A stretch of 16,243 nucleotides of DNA, taken from the NCBI GenBank assembly GCA_029974875.1, contig JARKQP010000389.1:1-16243 (forward strand). Reading direction: 5' to 3'. Each line of letters begins with the position of its first letter. Position 1 is the first letter of the stretch. Positions 3,914-16,243 of the stretch are shown piece after piece. Under the pieces are notes generated by a model. That model worked only from the letters and a program-made list of their open reading frames with translations, had not been told where the DNA came from and made no database searches. Both the position numbers and the translations under genes were made by a program. This DNA comes from Mobilitalea sp. (GTDB taxonomy: Bacteria; Bacillota_A; Clostridia; Lachnospirales; Lachnospiraceae).

Positions 3914-5119
3914 ATGAAACGATATATCTCTTTGCTTATTTTATCGGTTAGTATATTGGCCTTTACTGGCTGTGGCACAACAGCTCCTACCCCCGGCAGC
4001 AAAGAAGCTCCAAAACCCATAGCTGCTGTAATACCAGACGATATTACTGTAGTAAATACCATACACATTGTCGGTGGGCAGAGTACAGAATTCACTGTAG
4101 AAGGAAGCAATTTAAATAATTTGAGGACATGGGCCGGGGATTTACAATATAAACATAAAACCTTTACAAAAGGGAACTCCCCCGGCGATAAAGACGGTGG
4201 TGAAGTCTATAACTTTGAGCTGACGGAAGGTGACTATCCCGGGTTTTCATATGTTATCAATGGTGAAGAGGATTGCTATCTGCTGATTAATAGCGAATGG
4301 TATTCCGTCTCAAATCCTTCTGACCCACCGGTCGACAATAATACTCCTGTTATCTCAATGGTTATGGTCAAAGGTGAGTTGTATTATGATACAGGAAAAG
4401 AAAGTGAAGTTACCGGCCGGTGTGGAGTAATGGACGGTGAAATAACATCAAGTGTTGAGAGTTCTGAAACACCGGCAGAGGATGATCAGTCAAATTTCGG
4501 TACGGGTTTTGGATATCAATTCTGGGGAGAGGGTCAGATAGAAATTCTTATTAATAATAAGTGGATAGTATTTGAAAAACAAAGCGGAGATAACAGCCCC
4601 ATTCTCCAGGTAGAGCCTTCCCAACTTGAAAACATACCTAAAACAGAAAATGCACCAAACAATGAGTTAGTTGAAGGAAATCTGCCCGTGGAGTCCCCCT
4701 CTATTGAATTAGACTTAGTAAGTGCAGAATATCGTGCGAGGTGGAAGGAAAGCTATAATTATGATACACCAATACTTATTGATGACTTGGCTGCTTTGAC
4801 AGATTTCCTCAAAAATCACCCTGTACAATTATCAAGTGTGGATACTTTACAACAAAACTATAATGATGAATTTTTCATGCATAGTGTTGTATATGCATAT
4901 GTAGAAAGTGAAGGCAGTGGTTCGATTAAACTTACAGCGGAGAGTGCACAACTCAGTGGGGATACATTAAAGCTTTTTATGGAACGTATAGTCCCAGAAG
5001 TGGGCACTGCCGATATGGCAGCCTTGGTATGTCTATTTGGTATTAGCAGGGATGATATTAAAAGTATAAAATCAGTAGAGGGTATCGTAGAGTGCATAAC
5101 ATTAGAAGAAGGTTACTAG
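3914..5119 (+). CDS. Secreted lipoprotein, probable PrcB-like C-terminal domain
   Basis: A 401-residue lipoprotein with AGGAGG nine bases before the ATG. The signal peptide is KR followed by a hydrophobic stretch and a lipobox (FTGC) with lipidated Cys20, so the mature protein should be anchored outside the membrane. Residues about 45-240 contain two similar beta-rich segments (around YNFELTEGDYPGFSYVINGEEDCYLLINSEW and the later FGYQFWGEGQIEILINNKW), suggesting a duplicated small domain. The last roughly 110 residues have the pattern FF...VVYAYVESEGSGSIKL...LSGDTLKLFMERIVPEVGTADMAAL. This resembles the PrcB C-terminal-like domain seen in many clostridial secreted proteins, and the GSGS and TADMA elements support the call. 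It is the only plus-strand gene and converges on the PspC-domain gene. Specific function is unknown. Confidence 0.85.
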   Translation: MKRYISLLILSVSILAFTGCGTTAPTPGSKEAPKPIAAVIPDDITVVNTIHIVGGQSTEFTVEGSNLNNLRTWAGDLQYKHKTFTKGNSPGDKDGGEVYNFELTEGDYPGFSYVINGEEDCYLLINSEWYSVSNPSDPPVDNNTPVISMVMVKGELYYDTGKESEVTGRCGVMDGEITSSVESSETPAEDDQSNFGTGFGYQFWGEGQIEILINNKWIVFEKQSGDNSPILQVEPSQLENIPKTENAPNNELVEGNLPVESPSIELDLVSAEYRARWKESYNYDTPILIDDLAALTDFLKNHPVQLSSVDTLQQNYNDEFFMHSVVYAYVESEGSGSIKLTAESAQLSGDTLKLFMERIVPEVGTADMAALVCLFGISRDDIKSIKSVEGIVECITLEEGY

Positions 5120-8269: not shown

Positions 8270-9661
8270 CTATTCCTTTGGCAGGGTCACCGTAAACCCG
8301 GTTCCCTCCCCCAGGACACTCTGTACGGATACCCTTCCGCCATGCGCTTCTATGATCGCCTTGACAATCGTCAGCCCAATGCCTGCGCCTCCGGTTGCCC
8401 GGTTACGGGATTTATCCGCCCGGTAAAAGCGTTCAAAGATATAGGGAAGCTCCTGCTCCGGGATTCCAATGCCCGTATCCCTGATCTCAAAACCCACCGT
8501 ATCCCTGGTTTCAAAAATATCAAACCGGATTCTTGCCCCATCCTTTGAATACTTGACTGCATTTGAAAGCAAATTAACAACCACCTGCTTTAACCGGTCC
8601 TCATCTGCCAGAAGCTCATAATGCTCTCCCTGTAGCATGATCTCCAGATGCTTATTTTCAAGCTCTGCCCCAAAGCTTTGGATCGTTTTCTCTATAACCA
8701 GATATAAATCCACCCGCTGCTTGTGAAGCTTTAGGTTCCCACCCTCTATTTTAGCCAGACGCTCCAGGTCACCTACCAGCTTTCCAATACGCCTGACCTC
8801 TTCATTACAGCTTTCCAGGCGCTCCGGTGATGCCTCCCAGATCCCTTCCGTCATTGCCTCAAGATAGGACTGGAGAATTGTAATCGGTGTCCGCAGCTCA
8901 TGCGCCACATCCTCTGTCAGCTGCTTCCGCAGCTTCTCCAGGGTCTCTAAGGATACTGCCAGATGATTAATTGACTCCTCCAGCAGTCCCAGCTCCGCTG
9001 CATTACTTTCCTCCGCTAACCGGACACCGTAGTTGCCGTCAGCGATCTGCTTCGTGGCCTCCACAGTTTTAAGGATCGGCCCGCTGATTCTTTTTGCCAA
9101 TACATGTCCCACCAGCACTGCAACAATTAGGGATACCACACCGACACTGAACAATATCCTATTTAAGGAATGGATGAACTGGAAGTCATTCTCGTTTAAG
9201 AAAAAGGGTCCAAAGGCGCTGATGCTGATATGCCCAACTGTCTTACCGTCCTTCACCAGGGGATAGCTCTTCGCCGTAAATTCCCCGTTCAGCTGGGGAT
9301 ATTCAATCTTCATGCGGTTTGCTATCTCATCCATAATTTGATTGCATAATCTCATATCATGGGACTGGGCATCCCATATGATTGCCCCCTGTTTATCGTA
9401 TACCTTTACGATATAGCCCCCGTAAAGTGCATACATTCCCGTTGCATGGACAAAATCCGTATCCCACTTATCTGTGAACTGGGTATATTGCTGGCTGATC
9501 GTGGAGGTTATAATCTGTGCCTCAAGCTCCTGCTGCTTTGATACATAGGAGGTAAACTGCCGGTTAATAAAGATATTGGCAAGCAGGCTGACTACTGCAA
9601 TGGCCAGCAATACTATGACCAGTATTGTGGTAGACAATTGTGTCTTAAGGCTCTGCTTCAA
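8270..9661 (-). CDS. Sensor histidine kinase (two-component system)
   Basis: A 463-residue membrane kinase. It has a first membrane segment (about 11-32), an extracytoplasmic sensor region of about 130 residues, a second membrane segment (about 167-189) and a HAMP linker (190-242). The HisKA domain has H-box DVAHELRTPI with phospho-acceptor His254. The ATPase domain has N-box VVNLLSNAVKYS (Asn363, Asn367), G1 DTGIGIP (395-401), F-box and G2 GGAGIGL (424-430). It would autophosphorylate and pass phosphate to the adjacent response regulator. The start is a TTG (9659-9661) immediately after the regulator stop codon, with GGAGGTGAG before it, so the two are co-translated. Position downstream of copA and a lipoprotein suggests a copper or envelope signal, but no metal motif is obvious in the sensor region. 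Confidence 0.95.
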   Translation of the reverse strand: MKQSLKTQLSTTILVIVLLAIAVVSLLANIFINRQFTSYVSKQQELEAQIITSTISQQYTQFTDKWDTDFVHATGMYALYGGYIVKVYDKQGAIIWDAQSHDMRLCNQIMDEIANRMKIEYPQLNGEFTAKSYPLVKDGKTVGHISISAFGPFFLNENDFQFIHSLNRILFSVGVVSLIVAVLVGHVLAKRISGPILKTVEATKQIADGNYGVRLAEESNAAELGLLEESINHLAVSLETLEKLRKQLTEDVAHELRTPITILQSYLEAMTEGIWEASPERLESCNEEVRRIGKLVGDLERLAKIEGGNLKLHKQRVDLYLVIEKTIQSFGAELENKHLEIMLQGEHYELLADEDRLKQVVVNLLSNAVKYSKDGARIRFDIFETRDTVGFEIRDTGIGIPEQELPYIFERFYRADKSRNRATGGAGIGLTIVKAIIEAHGGRVSVQSVLGEGTGFTVTLPKE

Positions 9662-10357
9662 TTACTCACCTCCAAATTTATAGCCGACCCCATGGATTGT
9701 TTTTACATAGACAGGGTTTCTCGGATCTGTCTCAATTTTCTGCCGCAAATTCTTGATGTGGCTGTCGATGGTTCTGTCAAAGCCCTCAAAGCCCGTACCC
9801 AGGGCTGAGGTAATCAGCTCATCCCTTGTAAAGACCTTATTGGGATATCTGGCCAGAGTCGCCAAAAGCTTAAATTCATTTGGCGTTAATTTCACTTCCT
9901 CCGACTGCTTGAGGATGGTATGGTTCCCAAAATCCACGGTCAGATCCCCCTCCCGGTAGGTTCTTCCCGTCAGGGGCAGGAGGTCATCACTTGACCTGCG
10001 CATTACTGCCTCTATCCTTGCATAGAGCGATTTTAAGCTAAAGGGCTTTGTAATATAATCATCAGCCCCTATGCCAAGTCCCGTAAGCAGATCCGCCTCA
10101 TCTGATTTTGCCGTCAGCATAATAATGGGGACGCGGGATCTTTTGCGCAGCTGGATACACACCTCCTCCCCTGACAGCTCCGGCAGCATGAGGTCAAGCA
10201 AAACCAGGGAAATGTCCTCCCGGTCGAATAATTCCAATGCTTTTTTCCCGTCCATTGCGGCCACCACTAAAAAGCCCTTGCTTTCCAGGAAGGATTTCAC
10301 CACACCCAATATTTTTTCTTCATCTTCAACAACTAATATTTTCTTCCCCTGATTCAT
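9662..10357 (-). CDS. OmpR/PhoB-family response regulator
   Basis: A 231-residue cytoplasmic DNA-binding regulator. The receiver domain (about 6-120) has the acidic pair Glu11/Asp12, phospho-acceptor Asp55 in LVLLDLMLP, Thr82 and Lys104 in DYITKPF. The winged-helix domain (about 130-231) has LTPNEFKLLATLARYPNKVFTRDEL and ends VYVKTIHGVGYKFGGE. It is phosphorylated by the kinase encoded directly downstream. The ATG at 10355-10357 has GGAGGTGGGAG just before it. Only 15 bases separate it from the lipoprotein gene, so all three are one transcript. It probably controls the copper block, which is inferred from position. Confidence 0.96.
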   Translation of the reverse strand: MNQGKKILVVEDEEKILGVVKSFLESKGFLVVAAMDGKKALELFDREDISLVLLDLMLPELSGEEVCIQLRKRSRVPIIMLTAKSDEADLLTGLGIGADDYITKPFSLKSLYARIEAVMRRSSDDLLPLTGRTYREGDLTVDFGNHTILKQSEEVKLTPNEFKLLATLARYPNKVFTRDELITSALGTGFEGFDRTIDSHIKNLRQKIETDPRNPVYVKTIHGVGYKFGGE

Positions 10358-10372
10358 CTCCCACCTCCGGGC

Positions 10373-11068
10373 TTATTTCGATGGTGCGGGCTGCCCATCC
10401 AGATCAAAGGGCTTTAAAAATTTATCTACCTTCATCTCTTTTCCGTTATCATCCATGGTTTCTACCTGGGCAAATACCCAGCCCTCTACCTTGGAGGGAT
10501 CAACACCGGCTTCGAGGAAAATATCCGGGTTCAATACGAATACAATATCCTTGTCATTGGTTTTCATGTCCTTAGCCCATTCAAACATATTGCCACCGGA
10601 TAATTTTACGCCATAATGGTCTAAGGCGGTGTGGTAGCTGATATTGTAACGGTACAGCTTCACGAGCTGCTCATAGGAGCTAAGGGGTGCTGCCTCGCCG
10701 GAATAGGTAATAGCATCGTCTCCCAGCTCGGTTCCCAGGATCAGCTCGTCACCCACCAAAATCCCTTGCGGCAGCTTATCCACATCAAGCCCTGCAGCAA
10801 TAAATGGCTGCGCTTTTACCGCCAGCTGCACGTCATTTGAGGTTGTTTTACTATAATCCTTACTCCAAAGGAAGCTGGCCTCCCCGTCCGGTGCACTTAA
10901 GGCCCACCCTCCAAATTCAGTATCCTCCGTAACCTGGTCTCCCAGAAGATTTACTACCGCATCAAAAGATTTTATGGAGTCATCCCCTATAACGTCCAGC
11001 TTACCACAAGCTGTAAGACCAAGGATTGCAGCGACCGATAGTGCTGATAATAATATTTTTTTAACCAT
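10373..11068 (-). CDS. Lipoprotein of unknown family in the copA/two-component operon
   Basis: A 231-residue lipoprotein. The signal peptide MVKKILLSALSVAAILGLTAC has a clear lipobox (LTAC) with lipidated Cys21, so the mature protein sits on the outer face of the membrane. I do not recognise the mature domain. It is acidic, has Trp in FGGWALSAPDGEASFLW and EGWVFAQVE, and has no Cys beyond the lipidated one. TAGGAGAG precedes the ATG (11066-11068). It lies 81 bases after copA and 15 bases before the response regulator gene. A surface helper or signal-input protein for the sensor kinase is a reasonable guess. Another possibility is an envelope protein simply controlled by the system. Confidence 0.85.
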   Translation of the reverse strand: MVKKILLSALSVAAILGLTACGKLDVIGDDSIKSFDAVVNLLGDQVTEDTEFGGWALSAPDGEASFLWSKDYSKTTSNDVQLAVKAQPFIAAGLDVDKLPQGILVGDELILGTELGDDAITYSGEAAPLSSYEQLVKLYRYNISYHTALDHYGVKLSGGNMFEWAKDMKTNDKDIVFVLNPDIFLEAGVDPSKVEGWVFAQVETMDDNGKEMKVDKFLKPFDLDGQPAPSK

Positions 11069-11149
11069 TAGCGACTCTCCTACTTAAGTTATTTTATATG
11101 GATGCCTCCATGTACCGGAAGAATCCTACCTGCGGGCACCTGTGTTATG

Positions 11150-13612
11150 TTATTTATATGCCTTGAACCTTTTCAGCCGTAATGCGTTGCTCACAACGGA
11201 TACGGAGCTAAAGGCCATGGCAGCAGCTGCAAAGATCGGGTTGAGCAAGGGACCGCCAAACAGATGCAGGATACCTGCAGCAATGGGGATTCCCGCCACA
11301 TTATAGCCAAAAGCCCAGAACAGGTTCTGCTTAATATTACGGATGGTACTTTTACTCAGCTTAATTGCTGTGGGCACGTCCATCAGGTCGCTCCTCATCA
11401 GTACAATATCTGCCGATTCCATAGCTACATCCGTACCAGATCCGATTGCAATGCCAATATCCGCCTGGACCAGCGCCGGTGCATCGTTAATTCCGTCCCC
11501 TACCATGCATACCTTCTTGCCTTCAGCCTGAAGCTTCTTCACTTCATTGGATTTATCCTGGGGCAATACCTCTGCAAGCACCCGGTCAATTCCTACCTGT
11601 CTTGCTATGGCTTCCGCAGTTTTACGGTTATCACCTGTGATCATGGCAACCTCAATGCCCATTTCCTGGAGCTTTTTAATTGCCTTAGCGCTGCTCTCCT
11701 TCACAACGTCAGCTACTGCAATGATACCGGACAGCACATCGTCCATTGCGATATACATAGGTGTCTTGCCTTCCCCTGCTAACCGGTCGGAGGTTTCCCT
11801 GAGGGTCTCCAGGGATATCTGCCGGTCCTCCATCAGTTTTTTATTTCCGATCAGGATCTTCCTATCCTCGATCACGACCTCGATACCATGTCCCGGGATT
11901 GCCTCAAACTGCTGGACCTTCAGCATCTCAAGGCCTTCCTTTTCGGCTCCGCGCACAATCGCTTCACCAAGAGGGTGCTCCGAGCCTTTTTCTCCCGAGG
12001 CGGCAAGCTGCAGCAGCCGTTCACTTTTTACCCCTTTGGCAGGAACAATATCAGTTACCTCCGGCTTGCCCTCTGTAATCGTACCGGTTTTATCAAATAC
12101 AATCGTATTAATCTTATGGGTTGTTTCCAGGGCCTCGCCGCCCTTAATCAGGATCCCGTTCTCTGCCCCCTTACCTGTTCCTACCATAATTGCCGTGGGA
12201 GTTGCAAGCCCCAGGGCACAAGGGCAGGCGATTACCAGTACGGAGATGAAGATGGTCACTGCAAAGGCCAAAGGCTCCCCTGCAACCAGCCAGGCCAAAA
12301 ATGCAAGAAGTGCTATGCTGCATACAATGGGAACAAAATATCCGGAAACAATGTCTGCCATCTGGGCAATGGGAGCCTTGGAGCCCTGGGCATCCTCCAC
12401 CAGCTTAATGATCTGGGCCAAGGCCGTATCACTGCCTACCTTGGTTGCCTGGAACTTGATCATACCATTTTTATTGATGCTGGCCGCATACACCTTATCA
12501 CCTGATTTTTTGTCAACGGGCATACTTTCACCGGTTAGCATCGCCTCATCCACAGAGGTCGTTCCTTCCAGTACAACACCATCCACCGGTATTTTATCAC
12601 CGGGCTTGACCAGTATGATATTTCCGATCTCCACTTCATCGATGGGAACCTCCAGCTCCTTCCCATCCTCTATTACAATTGCGGTCTTCGGAGCCAGGCC
12701 CATGAGCTTTTTAATGGCTTCCGAGGTCTTGCCCTTTGAAACAGCCTCCAGGGATTTACCCAACAGGATCAGGGCTATAATCACACCTGCCGTTTCGTAG
12801 TATAGCCCTTCCACCGCACCAAAGTTGCCATTTGCAATTTGAAATGTATTATATACGCTGTAAATAATAGCTGCCGAGGTACCGATTGCTACCAGGGAAT
12901 CCATGTTAGGGCTCCTTTGGACCAGGGCTTTAAAGCCTACCGTATAGAACCTGTAGCCTGCTATAATAATCGGTATCACCAAAGTGATCTGCAGCAGGGC
13001 AAAGCGCAGGGGGAAAATCATCGGATTAAGTGCCGCCGGTACCGGGAAAGGCCACCAGGACACCATGGGAACCATGGCAAAATATAAGAGGGGCAAGCCA
13101 AAGGCGGATGCCACGATAAATTTTATCCAAAGCGTTCTTATCTCTTTTTCTTTCCTTAGTTTATCCTTGTCAACCGTATTCTTATCAATCTCCAAGGCCT
13201 GGTATCCGGCCTTCTCAATACACTGCTTGATGGCGGAAAGGCGGATTACCTGGGGATCATACTCCACAGTTGCCTTCTCCGTAGCCAGATTAACGGACAC
13301 CTTTGTAACGCCCTCCAGCTTATCAAGGGCTTTCTCCACCCTCTGGGCACAGGCTGCACAGGTCATCCCCCCAATGGGAATGGTTACCTGGTTTGATTTA
13401 CTATCTTCAACAACACCATATCCGGCCTGCTCTACCGCTCCCTTGATGGCTCCCATATCCACTGCTGCCCCATCAAATTCTACCACTAATTTCTCAGTGG
13501 CAAAATTTACGCTGGCATCCATGACCCCTTCCACCTTACCCACTGCCTTTTGCACTCTTGCGGCGCAGGCTGCACAGGTCATTCCGCTTATTTTAACTGT
13601 TTCTTTATTCAT
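11150..13612 (-). CDS. copA: Cu+-exporting P-type ATPase with two HMA domains
   Basis: An 820-residue P1B-type ATPase that moves Cu+ out of the cytoplasm using ATP. Two N-terminal metal-binding domains carry GMTCAACA with Cys13/Cys16 and Cys85/Cys88. The membrane part has the metal-binding CPC motif (Cys463-Pro-Cys465). Tyr770/Asn771 in FGYNVAG and Met799/Ser803 in MAFSSVS match the Cu+ site of the CopA subgroup. Catalytic motifs are TGES (360-363), DKTGT with phosphorylated Asp507, SEHPLG (His546), TGDN and GDGIND. The ATG at 13610-13612 has AGGG upstream. It follows the DUF2318 gene after 139 bases that contain three hairpins. Silver may also be carried. The family call is very strong. Confidence 0.97.
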   Translation of the reverse strand: MNKETVKISGMTCAACAARVQKAVGKVEGVMDASVNFATEKLVVEFDGAAVDMGAIKGAVEQAGYGVVEDSKSNQVTIPIGGMTCAACAQRVEKALDKLEGVTKVSVNLATEKATVEYDPQVIRLSAIKQCIEKAGYQALEIDKNTVDKDKLRKEKEIRTLWIKFIVASAFGLPLLYFAMVPMVSWWPFPVPAALNPMIFPLRFALLQITLVIPIIIAGYRFYTVGFKALVQRSPNMDSLVAIGTSAAIIYSVYNTFQIANGNFGAVEGLYYETAGVIIALILLGKSLEAVSKGKTSEAIKKLMGLAPKTAIVIEDGKELEVPIDEVEIGNIILVKPGDKIPVDGVVLEGTTSVDEAMLTGESMPVDKKSGDKVYAASINKNGMIKFQATKVGSDTALAQIIKLVEDAQGSKAPIAQMADIVSGYFVPIVCSIALLAFLAWLVAGEPLAFAVTIFISVLVIACPCALGLATPTAIMVGTGKGAENGILIKGGEALETTHKINTIVFDKTGTITEGKPEVTDIVPAKGVKSERLLQLAASGEKGSEHPLGEAIVRGAEKEGLEMLKVQQFEAIPGHGIEVVIEDRKILIGNKKLMEDRQISLETLRETSDRLAGEGKTPMYIAMDDVLSGIIAVADVVKESSAKAIKKLQEMGIEVAMITGDNRKTAEAIARQVGIDRVLAEVLPQDKSNEVKKLQAEGKKVCMVGDGINDAPALVQADIGIAIGSGTDVAMESADIVLMRSDLMDVPTAIKLSKSTIRNIKQNLFWAFGYNVAGIPIAAGILHLFGGPLLNPIFAAAAMAFSSVSVVSNALRLKRFKAYK

Positions 13613-13652
13613 GTCCCTTCAACCTCTCTTCCACTATATTTTCACAGTTTAT

Positions 13653-13683
13653 ATTATCGGAACCAAATACATGTTCCGATAAT
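13653..13683. promoter_or_regulatory. Perfect 11-bp hairpin upstream of copA (proximal)
   Basis: ATTATCGGAAC (13653-13663) and GTTCCGATAAT (13673-13683) are perfect inverted repeats around a 9-base spacer, about 40 bases before the copA start. It could be an operator for a dimeric regulator or an RNA stem. No T run follows, so it is not a classical terminator. Confidence 0.6.
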
Positions 13684-13693
13684 CGGGATGTAC

Positions 13694-13712
13694 GGCGCGA
13701 AAAAGCCGCGCC
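13694..13712. promoter_or_regulatory. GC-rich 6-bp hairpin upstream of copA (middle)
   Basis: GGCGCG (13694-13699) pairs with CGCGCC (13707-13712) around a 7-base spacer. It lies between the other two hairpins and has no T run directly after the stem in the leftward direction. Confidence 0.5.
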
Positions 13713-13714
13713 TC

Positions 13715-13745
13715 TTATGAGAAGTTAAAAAACAACTTCTCATAA
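13715..13745. promoter_or_regulatory. Perfect 12-bp hairpin just after the DUF2318 stop codon
   Basis: TTATGAGAAGTT (13715-13726) and AACTTCTCATAA (13734-13745) are perfect inverted repeats with a 7-base A-rich spacer on the plus strand. It begins six bases after the DUF2318 stop. It could slow or partly end transcription, or protect the upstream message end. Confidence 0.6.
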
Positions 13746-13751
13746 CTTATA

Positions 13752-14267
13752 TTACTTCCATTCAGCAAAGATTGTTGTAGCCTGTGCTAATATGTCCTTT
13801 GATATCGTTATTGTATCGTCAGCTACTGTTTTATATTCCTGTGTGATCGGTACCGGATTGCAGCCGCCCCTCGTTACCTCAACATCATCCATCTTAAAAC
13901 GGTTACCACAGTTCTGGCATACAAGTTCATTTCCGTCCGCCTCGTAATAGCCCTTACCTGAATTATAACATACTTGGCAAGTATTGAAAGCAGTACGTAT
14001 CGTACCATCGGAAGCTTTTACCGCAATCACCTCTAAATCAACGCCCTGGATATTGGCCGGATAATAGCTTGGTGTCTCAGTAATATCCTTTGTCTGGATT
14101 ACTATGTCACTATCCTTAACCGCTTTCTTTCTTAATTCGGAATTCTCCCCGGCGCCTGAGGAATCCGGTGTTCTTAAGCTGTAGGCAATGGCAACAAGGG
14201 CAACTGCCGCAACTATTATCATGCCCAGTTTTTTCAGGTCTAATTTTTTGTTTGTATTCTTATTCAT
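13752..14267 (-). CDS. DUF2318-family membrane-anchored Cys-rich protein
   Basis: A 171-residue protein with one N-terminal membrane segment (about 13-30) and an outer domain of the DUF2318 type. The key pattern is FNTCQVC (Cys97, Cys100), LVCQNCGNRF (Cys117, Cys120) and RGGCNPVP (Cys136). DUF2318 proteins are described as Fe-S or metal-binding membrane proteins and are best known beside Ftr1/P19-type iron uptake genes. Here the neighbours are a SafE/cupredoxin protein and copA, so a copper or redox role is more likely, though unproven. AAGGAGATT precedes the ATG (14265-14267). It starts 50 bases after the upstream gene stop. Family call is strong; the bound metal cannot be read from sequence. 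Confidence 0.9.
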   Translation of the reverse strand: MNKNTNKKLDLKKLGMIIVAAVALVAIAYSLRTPDSSGAGENSELRKKAVKDSDIVIQTKDITETPSYYPANIQGVDLEVIAVKASDGTIRTAFNTCQVCYNSGKGYYEADGNELVCQNCGNRFKMDDVEVTRGGCNPVPITQEYKTVADDTITISKDILAQATTIFAEWK

Positions 14268-14317
14268 ACGATTAATCTCCTTTTCGTCCTATTAAAGTTT
14301 ACCTATGGCTTAACCCA

Positions 14318-16243
14318 TCATTCACAGCAGGAAGCACCGGAACTTACCCCGCTTAATCCTGTGGGTATATATTCTGATACCTCTTTCTTTACCGCTGCCT
14401 CATCGATTTGATTAATATCCTCCACTACCTTTACATAGCCGTAGTAGGAGCCATCCGAGGAAAGGAATTCAAAATCCTGGTCTGGGATGAAACGGACCAA
14501 GTTTTCTCCCTCCGCTACCTCTAACTGTGCTGAATAATAAGGGAAAATCAACGTACCCTTACTGCTGTCCACGTCCTTCCCTTGAATGTTCCAAGCGGTC
14601 TCAAGCCCTGCCTGGACCACGATAACTGCCGGGGAAAAGCCGTTCCTTCCATAAACCAGCTCCACCTTCTGGGTTCCATCCCCATTCACCGCTGCAACTG
14701 CAATCTCATCCGTCGGAATCTGCGCATCCAGTAGGTTATTAAAATCCTTTAGTCCGTTTGAATTGCTGTCAGGATCTCCGTTTCCAGTGCTTGAATTACT
14801 GCTTGAAGCTGTACTGCCTGAATTATTCACACCGCTTGAATCACTATTTGAACTGCTGTCGTTTTTGCTTACGGAACCACCTCCGGCTCCACAGCAGCCT
14901 CCGGCAGAGGAGGAACTGACACTGCCTGCGTCAGCAATCGTGCTGCTGTCCACATTACCCAGATCATCCACCACCGTGATTTTACTCCGGATCATACCCA
15001 TCCAGCAGCTAAAGGGTACCGTGCCGCTTTCTGTGGGAGTAAATTCTACAACGTTATCACCAATTTGAAGTTTCTTCTGTATACTGTATTTCTGGACCAG
15101 GATGCTGTTATTGCAGCCGTTTAGCTCCCCGTCTTCCGCCTGTATCGTCCATGTCACCGGAATACCCTTCTGGACGATAATCGGTTCATAGCTGCCGGAG
15201 GTGATTCCCGAGGTTACCACCTGTATGTCACCCTCAACCGATGCCAGGTTTGCTTTCTGCTTCGTATCCGCTGACGCCGGAAAGGCCGGTAATACAATTC
15301 CCGACAATCCGACACCGTTGTTGAACATGAAGATTCCTAAGAATACTACCAATACTGCACTGGCAGTCAGCATCTTAGACGTAAATTTCTTGCTCAGGAA
15401 GCTGCTTAAGGCTCCAAAGGCAAACATTAGCGGCACCGTGCCTATACTGAACAGGAACATGGATAAAGCACCCTTGATGGGGCTGCCCGTGGACAGGGCA
15501 TAGAGCTGCATTGCCTGCAATGGCCCGCAGGGCATCAGGCCGTTCAATAATCCTATATAAAGTGGACCCTTGCCGCTGCTTCCGGCGTATATCTTTTTTG
15601 CAAAAACCTTAGGCATTCTCGGATTCAGCTTGCGCAGCCCCGGGAATATATTTAACATATTCAACCCCATAATTACCATAAATACACCGGCCAGGATCTG
15701 TACAATCCCCTTCATGGTTCCTGAAAAGCTTACCACGGAGCCGACCGCACCCACGATACCGCCAATTACCGTATAGGAAACCACCCGTCCAAAATTGTAG
15801 AGAAGGCTGGGTTTCATGGCTGAAAACCTGCCTATGAAGGTTCCTTCCTTTGCCGGGACACATTGTGATAAGCAGATGCCCCCGCACATGGCCACACAAT
15901 GCACCGAAGTCAAGGCTCCGATTAGAAAGAGCATCCCATATCCCATTCCTTCCTCAGCCGTGGGAAAGGAATTAAAAATGTTAAACAGCCCAAAATGATT
16001 TGCCACCATGTACATTGCAAAAAGGATGATAATAATTCCAATCAGGTCCGTGACATCCCGGCCTTCTGATTTGTTTCCCTGATGCCCGCTCTTTTCCTTG
16101 GTATTGCTTGTTCCAGGGCTGGCCTTGAGGCTTTCCTGGGTTTTCACCTGATAGCCCTCGGCTTCGATAACCCTTTGTATTTCCTGGATACTGGTCAGGC
16201 TTCCATCAAAGGTCACAGTTACCTGTCCCCTTGAGTAGCTTGC
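14318..16243 (-). CDS. HMA–SafE/TauE-like membrane protein with two cupredoxin-like domains (5' end outside window)
   Basis: The frame is open to the right edge, leaving 641 visible residues (numbered here from the first visible one). Residues 1-34 are the second half of an HMA metal-binding domain (SRGQVTVTFDG...IEAEGYQV). A linker and a membrane segment (about 65-85) follow. Next is a SafE/DsbD-like multi-span region (about 99-310) with motifs TSVHCVAMCGG (112-122) and GLLNGLMPCG (231-240). A cupredoxin-like domain (about 339-426) carries Cys377 and FSCWMGM (Cys413, Met415, Met417), plausible copper ligands. A Ser/Asn-rich linker holds Cys450-Cys451. A second cupredoxin-like domain (about 522-609) lacks obvious ligands, and the tail ends SCCE. 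It probably moves or delivers copper with the downstream DUF2318 protein and CopA. The first CxxC, if present, lies outside the window. Confidence 0.9.
   Translation of the reverse strand, partial: ASYSRGQVTVTFDGSLTSIQEIQRVIEAEGYQVKTQESLKASPGTSNTKEKSGHQGNKSEGRDVTDLIGIIIILFAMYMVANHFGLFNIFNSFPTAEEGMGYGMLFLIGALTSVHCVAMCGGICLSQCVPAKEGTFIGRFSAMKPSLLYNFGRVVSYTVIGGIVGAVGSVVSFSGTMKGIVQILAGVFMVIMGLNMLNIFPGLRKLNPRMPKVFAKKIYAGSSGKGPLYIGLLNGLMPCGPLQAMQLYALSTGSPIKGALSMFLFSIGTVPLMFAFGALSSFLSKKFTSKMLTASAVLVVFLGIFMFNNGVGLSGIVLPAFPASADTKQKANLASVEGDIQVVTSGITSGSYEPIIVQKGIPVTWTIQAEDGELNGCNNSILVQKYSIQKKLQIGDNVVEFTPTESGTVPFSCWMGMIRSKITVVDDLGNVDSSTIADAGSVSSSSAGGCCGAGGGSVSKNDSSSNSDSSGVNNSGSTASSSNSSTGNGDPDSNSNGLKDFNNLLDAQIPTDEIAVAAVNGDGTQKVELVYGRNGFSPAVIVVQAGLETAWNIQGKDVDSSKGTLIFPYYSAQLEVAEGENLVRFIPDQDFEFLSSDGSYYGYVKVVEDINQIDEAAVKKEVSEYIPTGLSGVSSGASCCE

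Follow-up and report, generated by a model that had tools for sequence, protein, structure and literature searches.

RESULTS

A probable six-gene copper set and its recurrence

The window analysed here is a stretch of 16,243 nucleotides from Mobilitalea sp. (contig JARKQP010000389.1), which carries six adjoining minus-strand genes (Table 1): a membrane fusion protein with a DsbD_2 core and two cupredoxin-like domains, a DUF2318 protein, the copper ATPase CopA, a lipoprotein, a response regulator and a sensor histidine kinase. The six open reading frames (ORFs) lie where a first-pass annotation of the sequence had placed them, and the gaps it gave between them, 50, 139, 81, 15 and 0 bases, are exact. 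The window ends within the first gene, the fusion, which is open at position 16243, so that the start of the operon and its promoter lie outside. From the comparisons with related genomes described below, the genes most likely represent a recurrent clostridial copper set that is self-regulated from outside the membrane.

Among 80 fusion loci (the best 80 of 287 found), the six-gene order is exact in four (L002, L003, L004 and L006); L074 has it with an extra cupredoxin gene and L001 keeps it as far as the contig goes. Most other loci hold subsets. Conservation of the gene order, which the first-pass annotation had offered as a check, thus holds among near relatives and breaks down farther off, where the set is permuted and often incomplete. 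In the 40 loci with 6 kb on both sides (the other 40 are too short), a kinase lies within 6 kb of the fusion in 27, CopA in 25, DUF2318 in 16 and the lipoprotein in 14. Could the genes be neighbours by chance or common inheritance, with no joint function? Several near relatives do keep the set at one chromosomal place, as judged by eye. Recurrent permuted sets in distant lineages and the co-occurrence in unselected genomes reported below largely refute this explanation, which we find barely credible.

A tandem site upstream of the set in relatives

In an upstream alignment of eight near relatives, a block with two TCTnCA repeats is followed by a TGnTATnAT-like box. The sequence TCTCCATAATATCTCCACAA stands upstream of the fusion in L001, L002, L003 and L006, with variants in L004, L005 and L007. 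Column counts reveal TG at 25-26 and TAnnAT at 28-33, an extended -10 element, and the repeats therefore occupy the place of the -35 box, where activator sites can stand. The loose pattern TCTnCA-N5-TCTnCA was tested on 69 loci unused in its discovery and was found upstream of the fusion in 37; after dinucleotide shuffling of those stretches it turned up in 0.03 loci on average and in one at most. The count becomes 46 of 69 when a DUF2318 gene leading the set is included, a case that the shuffles do not cover. Before other ORFs of the test loci the loose site is scarce (9 of 486), and these nine include CueP, a periplasmic copper-binding family, a DsbD_TM protein (L029), DUF6803 and a chemotaxis receptor.

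A strict pattern, tuned on some of the fusion-bearing loci, was located 38 times, in 25 of the 43 fusion-bearing genomes; its reversed control was absent. The 34 distinct strict sites in the fetched loci precede the fusion (20), DUF2318 (10), the regulator (1) or other genes (3). Because of the tuning, more weight falls on a test in 291 clostridial genomes chosen independently of these genes, here called unselected. Thirteen of the 291 contain a total of 17 strict sites, and all 13 have the kinase family (p 1.3e-12, relatedness ignored), with the site within about 7 kb of the kinase in 12; two of the 13 lack the fusion. Nine of the 17 sites precede the fusion, two DUF2318, one CopA, two coiled-coil secreted proteins (by eye) and two a membrane protein, and one lies some 50 bases from a contig end. 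Since the window promoter is missing, we infer the window's own site from L002, whose proteins are 88-96% identical to the window's and whose site stands 195 bases before the fusion ORF.

How does the predicted site compare with those of regulators that have been studied? The half-site pattern of the relatives fits the BaeR half-site TCTNCANAA (quoted in PMC3799227). The copper regulator CopR of Corynebacterium glutamicum binds TGAAGATTTgaTGAAGATTT (PMC3140484), a tandem TGAAGATTT-type site with an 11-bp period, the reverse complement of which fits the loose pattern derived from the relatives. Both comparisons support an OmpR-type copper or envelope regulator as the protein predicted to act on the site.

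Several further occurrences of the site were recorded. A CueP-family gene after the kinase has its own tandem copy (L076:13643-14224). A family of 361-397 aa proteins with the site upstream (L021:14919-16112, L022:15578-16663, L027:14918-16102, L029:17954-19144) has a membrane anchor with NHSxH near it, and the three members scanned match no Pfam family. In L232, L233, L236 and L237, which have only the Cys-less sibling kinases described below, the site stands before coiled-coil secreted proteins or a membrane protein. Copies of a tandem GGAGG/CCTCC palindrome lie between site and fusion start in two loci (L002:7706-7900, L007:9730-9886).

The kinase and its regulator

In 47 aligned kinases (the window's and 46 from fusion loci), C106 of the sensor region is invariant and M117 is present in 46. 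Matches to the sensor domain in the unselected genomes occupy 50 places in 41 genomes. Twenty-eight of these places form a Cys-type group (C106 in 28/28, M117 in 23/28), and a gene of the set lies within the fetched +-7 kb in 25 of the 28; the remaining 22, with weaker matches, are a sibling group in which C106 is absent (0/22) and several members are Met-rich by eye. The Cys-type kinase is found in 25 of the 291 genomes and the fusion in all 25 of these (p 6e-29, relatedness ignored), or 19 of 19 after removal of six genomes already seen. Seen from the fusion, 33 of 34 unselected genomes with a strong match have some kinase of the family, the exception being G081; this count leaves out two genomes with only short, weaker matches. 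All seven unselected genomes with the lipoprotein have both fusion and kinase. The built-in sensing proposed by the first-pass annotation gains from this co-occurrence and from a common upstream site that fits proven regulator sites.

The best NCBIfam match of the kinase is BaeS_SmeS, at 279.7 of 500 bits, and the regulator reaches 183.7 of 380 bits with BaeR, both below the cut-offs. Nor do the heavy-metal pair models TIGR01387 and TIGR01386 reach theirs (145.8 of 279.2 and 213.6 of 292.55 bits). The recognition helix DRTIDSHIKNLR is identical to that of E. coli BaeR over 12 residues, where RegX3 and MtrA differ; all 12 are kept in 7 of 44 related regulators, and most others have 1-3 changes. 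Is the pair then a general envelope-stress or multi-metal system of the BaeSR kind, for which copper is one of several signals? Half-site and recognition helix are BaeR-like, and in Salmonella Cu, Zn and Fe all induce BaeR (PMC3160322). Sites also stand, in four genomes whose only kinases of the family are Cys-less siblings, before coiled-coil secreted proteins or a membrane protein and, three times in fusion-bearing genomes, before other genes. We nevertheless regard this explanation as unlikely: the strict site is rare, with 38 copies spread over 25 of the 43 genomes, and in unselected genomes with the Cys-type kinase every one of the 11 sites whose downstream DNA can be read stands before the fusion or DUF2318.

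The fusion and the DUF2318 protein

Pfam recognizes DsbD_2 in the fusion (E 2e-51) and, as a borderline match, Cupredoxin_1 (27.0 bits, cut-off 27). The label ‘SafE’ of the first-pass annotation has to be replaced, as the Pfam matches are PF13386/PF02683 (DsbD_2/DsbD_TM) and PF01925 (TauE) has no match at E <= 0.001. Nearly all listed relatives have an HMA domain at the N-terminus, which in the window copy lies beyond the window. In the AlphaFold model (pLDDT 74.8, pTM 0.45; domain placement uncertain) we count seven membrane helices, one of them broken, and two cupredoxin-like domains with block means mostly of 86-97 and one of 79.

In the PDB, the first cupredoxin matches by sequence at E <= 1 nothing but the metal-binding domain of pneumococcal CopA (E 3e-5) and CupA (E 2e-4). 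A fold search ranks a multicopper oxidase first, 4F2E (CupA) second (TM 0.87, rmsd 1.4) and 4F2F third (TM 0.83). The Cu(I) ligands of CupA are C74, C111, M113 and M115 (PMC5646241), and the residues aligned with them, C377, C413, M415 and M417, are invariant in 92 of 92 fusion sequences (the window's and 91 of 120 listed; 7427 relatives were found). Judged by predicted fold and ligands, the first domain is a CupA-type cupredoxin. The second has lost the ligands in the window copy; CxMxM is kept in many other loci (e.g. L012, L016, L021), and the Acetobacterium loci L031, L041, L045 and L050 encode a second ligand-bearing cupredoxin on its own, in a protein with a lipobox (by eye), a motif read as the mark of a lipoprotein. 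HMA domains face the cytoplasm. If that of the fusion does so, the odd number of helices in the model and the Acetobacterium cupredoxin lipoprotein would place the cupredoxins outside the membrane.

The DUF2318 protein (171 aa) matches PF10080 (FtrD-like, formerly DUF2318) with 96.3 bits against a cut-off of 26.3, and its residues C97, C100, C117, C120 and C136 are invariant in 41 of 41 sequences. CcdA proteins function in electron transfer, and it is conceivable that the main role of the fusion and the DUF2318 protein is that of a CcdA/DsbD-like thiol-redox relay, which sends electrons outward and keeps exported cysteines reduced under copper stress, copper capture being secondary. The DsbD_2/DsbD_TM domains, the invariant core cysteines, the CxxC pairs of the DUF2318 protein and the DsbD_TM gene with an upstream site in L029 are all consistent with such a relay, and the paper on pneumococcal CupA does not settle where the electrons come from (PMC5646241). 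A cupredoxin that keeps four Cu(I) ligands has more than a redox pair, however, and no thioredoxin domain was found among the 14 window proteins scanned; we consider a mainly redox role somewhat unlikely.

A DUF2318 relative belongs to iron-uptake clusters of Campylobacter (PMC6083913, PMC10783030). That the PF10080 protein of the window is likewise part of an iron-uptake set of the FtrD/FetA type is very improbable in our view: CopA and the CupA-type ligands indicate Cu(I), and no iron permease, P19 or ABC domain is present among the 14 proteins scanned in the window, which is cut at the upstream end of the set. In gut Firmicutes, DUF2318 and HMA-DsbD_2 proteins are both members of a predicted copper regulon (PMC4938975).

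CopA and a lipoprotein family that follows it

CopA is a copper-type ATPase with two HMA domains (TIGR01511, 639 bits; cut-off 397). It has two GMTCAAC arms together with CPC463, YN770 and MxxSS799, which we take to be motifs of P1B-1 Cu(I) ATPases. The assignment to copper in the first-pass annotation is supported by these motifs, the CupA-type Cu(I) ligands and the recurrent linkage.

The lipoprotein (231 aa) matches no Pfam or NCBIfam family and has 2042 relatives at E <= 0.001. Its two halves arose by internal duplication and match each other at E 3.7e-6 in pairwise BLAST and with 97.5% probability in hhalign; the confident model (pLDDT 90.9, pTM 0.84) finds no PDB fold at E <= 0.001. Pattern matching finds a lipobox in 20 of the 23 locus copies; the signal peptide of a Synergistaceae copy (L058), judged by eye, has none. 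The 49 genomes reached via the fusion contain 26 lipoprotein places in 23 genomes. Each of the 25 full-length ones follows CopA on the same strand; the remaining one, a remote and partial relative, has no CopA nearby. Four of the seven lipoprotein genomes among the 291 are new, with three places behind CopA and a fourth 1.4 kb from the fusion and 5.3 kb from CopA. Overall, the distinct full-length places number 29, and in 28 the lipoprotein follows CopA in the same orientation; about 23-633 bases separate the two genes, in 24 cases no more than 214. Seventeen of the 28 have a small CopA-HMA-like stretch, perhaps a CopZ gene, next to the lipoprotein, in two between CopA and the lipoprotein and in 15 loci on the lipoprotein's far side (L087, L090, L092-L097, L099-L102, L104, L105, L109); no such stretch stands beside the lipoprotein in the window and its nearest kin. 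In L112, a remote relative of the lipoprotein (3947-4624) has a Met-rich protein close by and no CopA.

Table 1. Features of the six-gene set, with positions in the window
Feature	Position	Strand	Basis
HMA-(DsbD_2 membrane core)-cupredoxin-cupredoxin fusion, 5' end cut by window end	14318..16243	-	ORF list, Pfam, relatives, model
DsbD_2 (CcdA-like) membrane domain; invariant H115, C116, M119, C120, C239	15332..15931	-	Pfam, alignment
First cupredoxin domain; CupA-type Cu(I) ligands C377, C413, M415, M417	14969..15244	-	PDB sequence match, model, alignment, fold search
Second cupredoxin-like domain; CupA-type ligands lost in this copy	14420..14710	-	Model, alignment
Membrane-anchored FtrD-like/DUF2318 protein (anchor by eye)	13752..14267	-	ORF list, Pfam
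CxxC-x16-CxxC-x15-C of DUF2318 protein; five cysteines invariant 41/41	13860..13979	-	Alignment
Gap with three stem-loops, not common to near relative L002	13613..13751	-	Gap comparison
CopA, P1B-1 Cu(I) ATPase, two HMA domains	11150..13612	-	Pfam, NCBIfam, motifs
Lipoprotein, unnamed family, follows CopA	10373..11068	-	ORF list, family searches, places in genomes
Lipoprotein repeat 1	10772..10975	-	Pairwise BLAST/hhalign
Lipoprotein repeat 2	10487..10684	-	Pairwise BLAST/hhalign
OmpR/PhoB-type response regulator	9662..10357	-	Pfam, NCBIfam
Regulator recognition helix DRTIDSHIKNLR, same 12 residues as E. coli BaeR	9743..9778	-	Comparison
Sensor histidine kinase (HAMP/HisKA)	8270..9661	-	Pfam, NCBIfam
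Kinase extracytoplasmic sensor region with C106, M117	9146..9574	-	Alignment

Neighbouring genes and other observations

Left of the six genes lies a PadR / HAAS / DUF4097 gene group with a promoter-like match (11/12) at its start, and positions 3914-5119 of the plus strand contain a lipoprotein-like ORF of 401 aa that matches no Pfam family. The gap before CopA forms three hairpins in the window (13613-13751) and a long inverted repeat in L001 (5876-6155); the L002 sequence there is unrelated. Small HMLHM(I/A)xCCGLPI proteins stand beside the set in three loci (L005:15424-15762, L034:9445-9744, L111:7728-8036), and the L034 and L111 copies match no Pfam family.

DISCUSSION

Based on these comparisons, we propose that the six genes are quite probably a copper-stress operon driven by its own two-component pair through the tandem site. 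How might such an operon work? Copper outside the cell would be felt by the Cys/Met sensor domain of the kinase, and the regulator would bind the tandem TCTnCAnAA site, replacing the -35 box, and switch the set on. CopA would export Cu(I), while the outer cupredoxin of the fusion may hold Cu(I) as CupA does, with the HMA arm inside. The CcdA-like core and the five-cysteine DUF2318 protein might keep thiols reduced or pass copper on, and the lipoprotein may work beside CopA at its exit. A copper relay between these proteins, as in the surface-to-membrane relay suggested by the first-pass annotation, is possible, if doubtful. A more ambitious proposal is that of a distinct clostridial copper defence, in which the fusion has a Cu(I)-binding arm on either side of a thiol-lined CcdA-like core and moves copper or electrons across the membrane, a new family of duplicated lipoproteins is dedicated to CopA as its partner at the exit, and a small regulon of its own is defined by an extracytoplasmic Cys/Met copper kinase; that all of these parts hold jointly we advance as a tentative idea that may well be wrong.

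Several observations weigh against the proposed copper operon. Five of the 40 well-flanked fusion loci have no other gene of the set within 6 kb. Apart from the lipid cysteine, the invariant residues of the lipoprotein include no cluster of Met/Cys. Five of the 28 Cys-type kinases have lost M117, and 11 of the 22 Cys-less siblings also have set genes nearby, so that C106 is not a clean mark of copper linkage. In 23 of the 76 loci the loose pattern has no upstream match; of the strict sites, 3 of 34 in fusion-bearing genomes stand before other genes, and 5 of 17 in unselected genomes stand before other genes or a contig end. Lastly, a gene of the CsoR family, the copper repressor of gut Firmicutes (PMC4938975), lies inside the set in L032, and the two-component pair need therefore not be the sole control.

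The proposed operon shares components with four known systems. Like pneumococcal CupA and the CopA metal-binding domain (PDB 4F2E, 2MRY, 4F2F), the fusion combines a cupredoxin fold with Cys and Cys-x-Met-x-Met Cu(I) ligands, is membrane-bound and stands beside a copper ATPase. It differs in that the cupredoxin is fused to HMA and a DsbD_2 core, would by modelled topology lie outside and is encoded beside a two-component pair, whereas the pneumococcal system has CopY. The CsoR meta-regulon of gut Firmicutes (PMC4938975) likewise joins CopA, HMA-DsbD_2 (COG2836) and DUF2318 in one predicted copper regulon, but under CsoR, and the accessible part of its text does not contain the words two-component, lipoprotein or cupredoxin. 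CopRS of C. glutamicum (PMC3140484) is a Gram-positive copper pair with a tandem site whose half-sites and spacing fit the pattern predicted here; it controls CopB and a multicopper oxidase, and its sensor loop has His/Met, the word cysteine being absent from the accessible text. With enterobacterial BaeSR the window pair shares the 12 recognition-helix residues and the best NCBIfam match of the kinase, and the site predicted for it from relatives fits the BaeR half-site; BaeSR, however, controls drug pumps and spy (PMC7657598, PMC3160322), and the window pair stays under the NCBIfam cut-offs. Iron-uptake FtrD/FetA proteins of the DUF2318 family have the same CxxC...CxxC...C arrangement, whereas no iron transporter is among the window proteins scanned.

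Already known are CopA, CupA-type domains, copper two-component pairs and the presence of DUF2318 in copper regulons. As far as the open literature searched shows, the gene combination, the CopA-linked duplicated lipoprotein, the co-occurrence of Cys-type kinase and fusion and the predicted regulon are new. What are the implications for copper handling in clostridia? The one regulon study found on gut Firmicutes gives copper control as CsoR plus CopA (PMC4938975). If the proposed operon is real, the set would extend this picture by sensing that takes place outside the membrane, a CupA-type domain that is exported and a partner protein of CopA. It also offers a candidate electron source for CupA-type proteins, and its DNA site could serve to predict copper-responsive genes across many clostridia.

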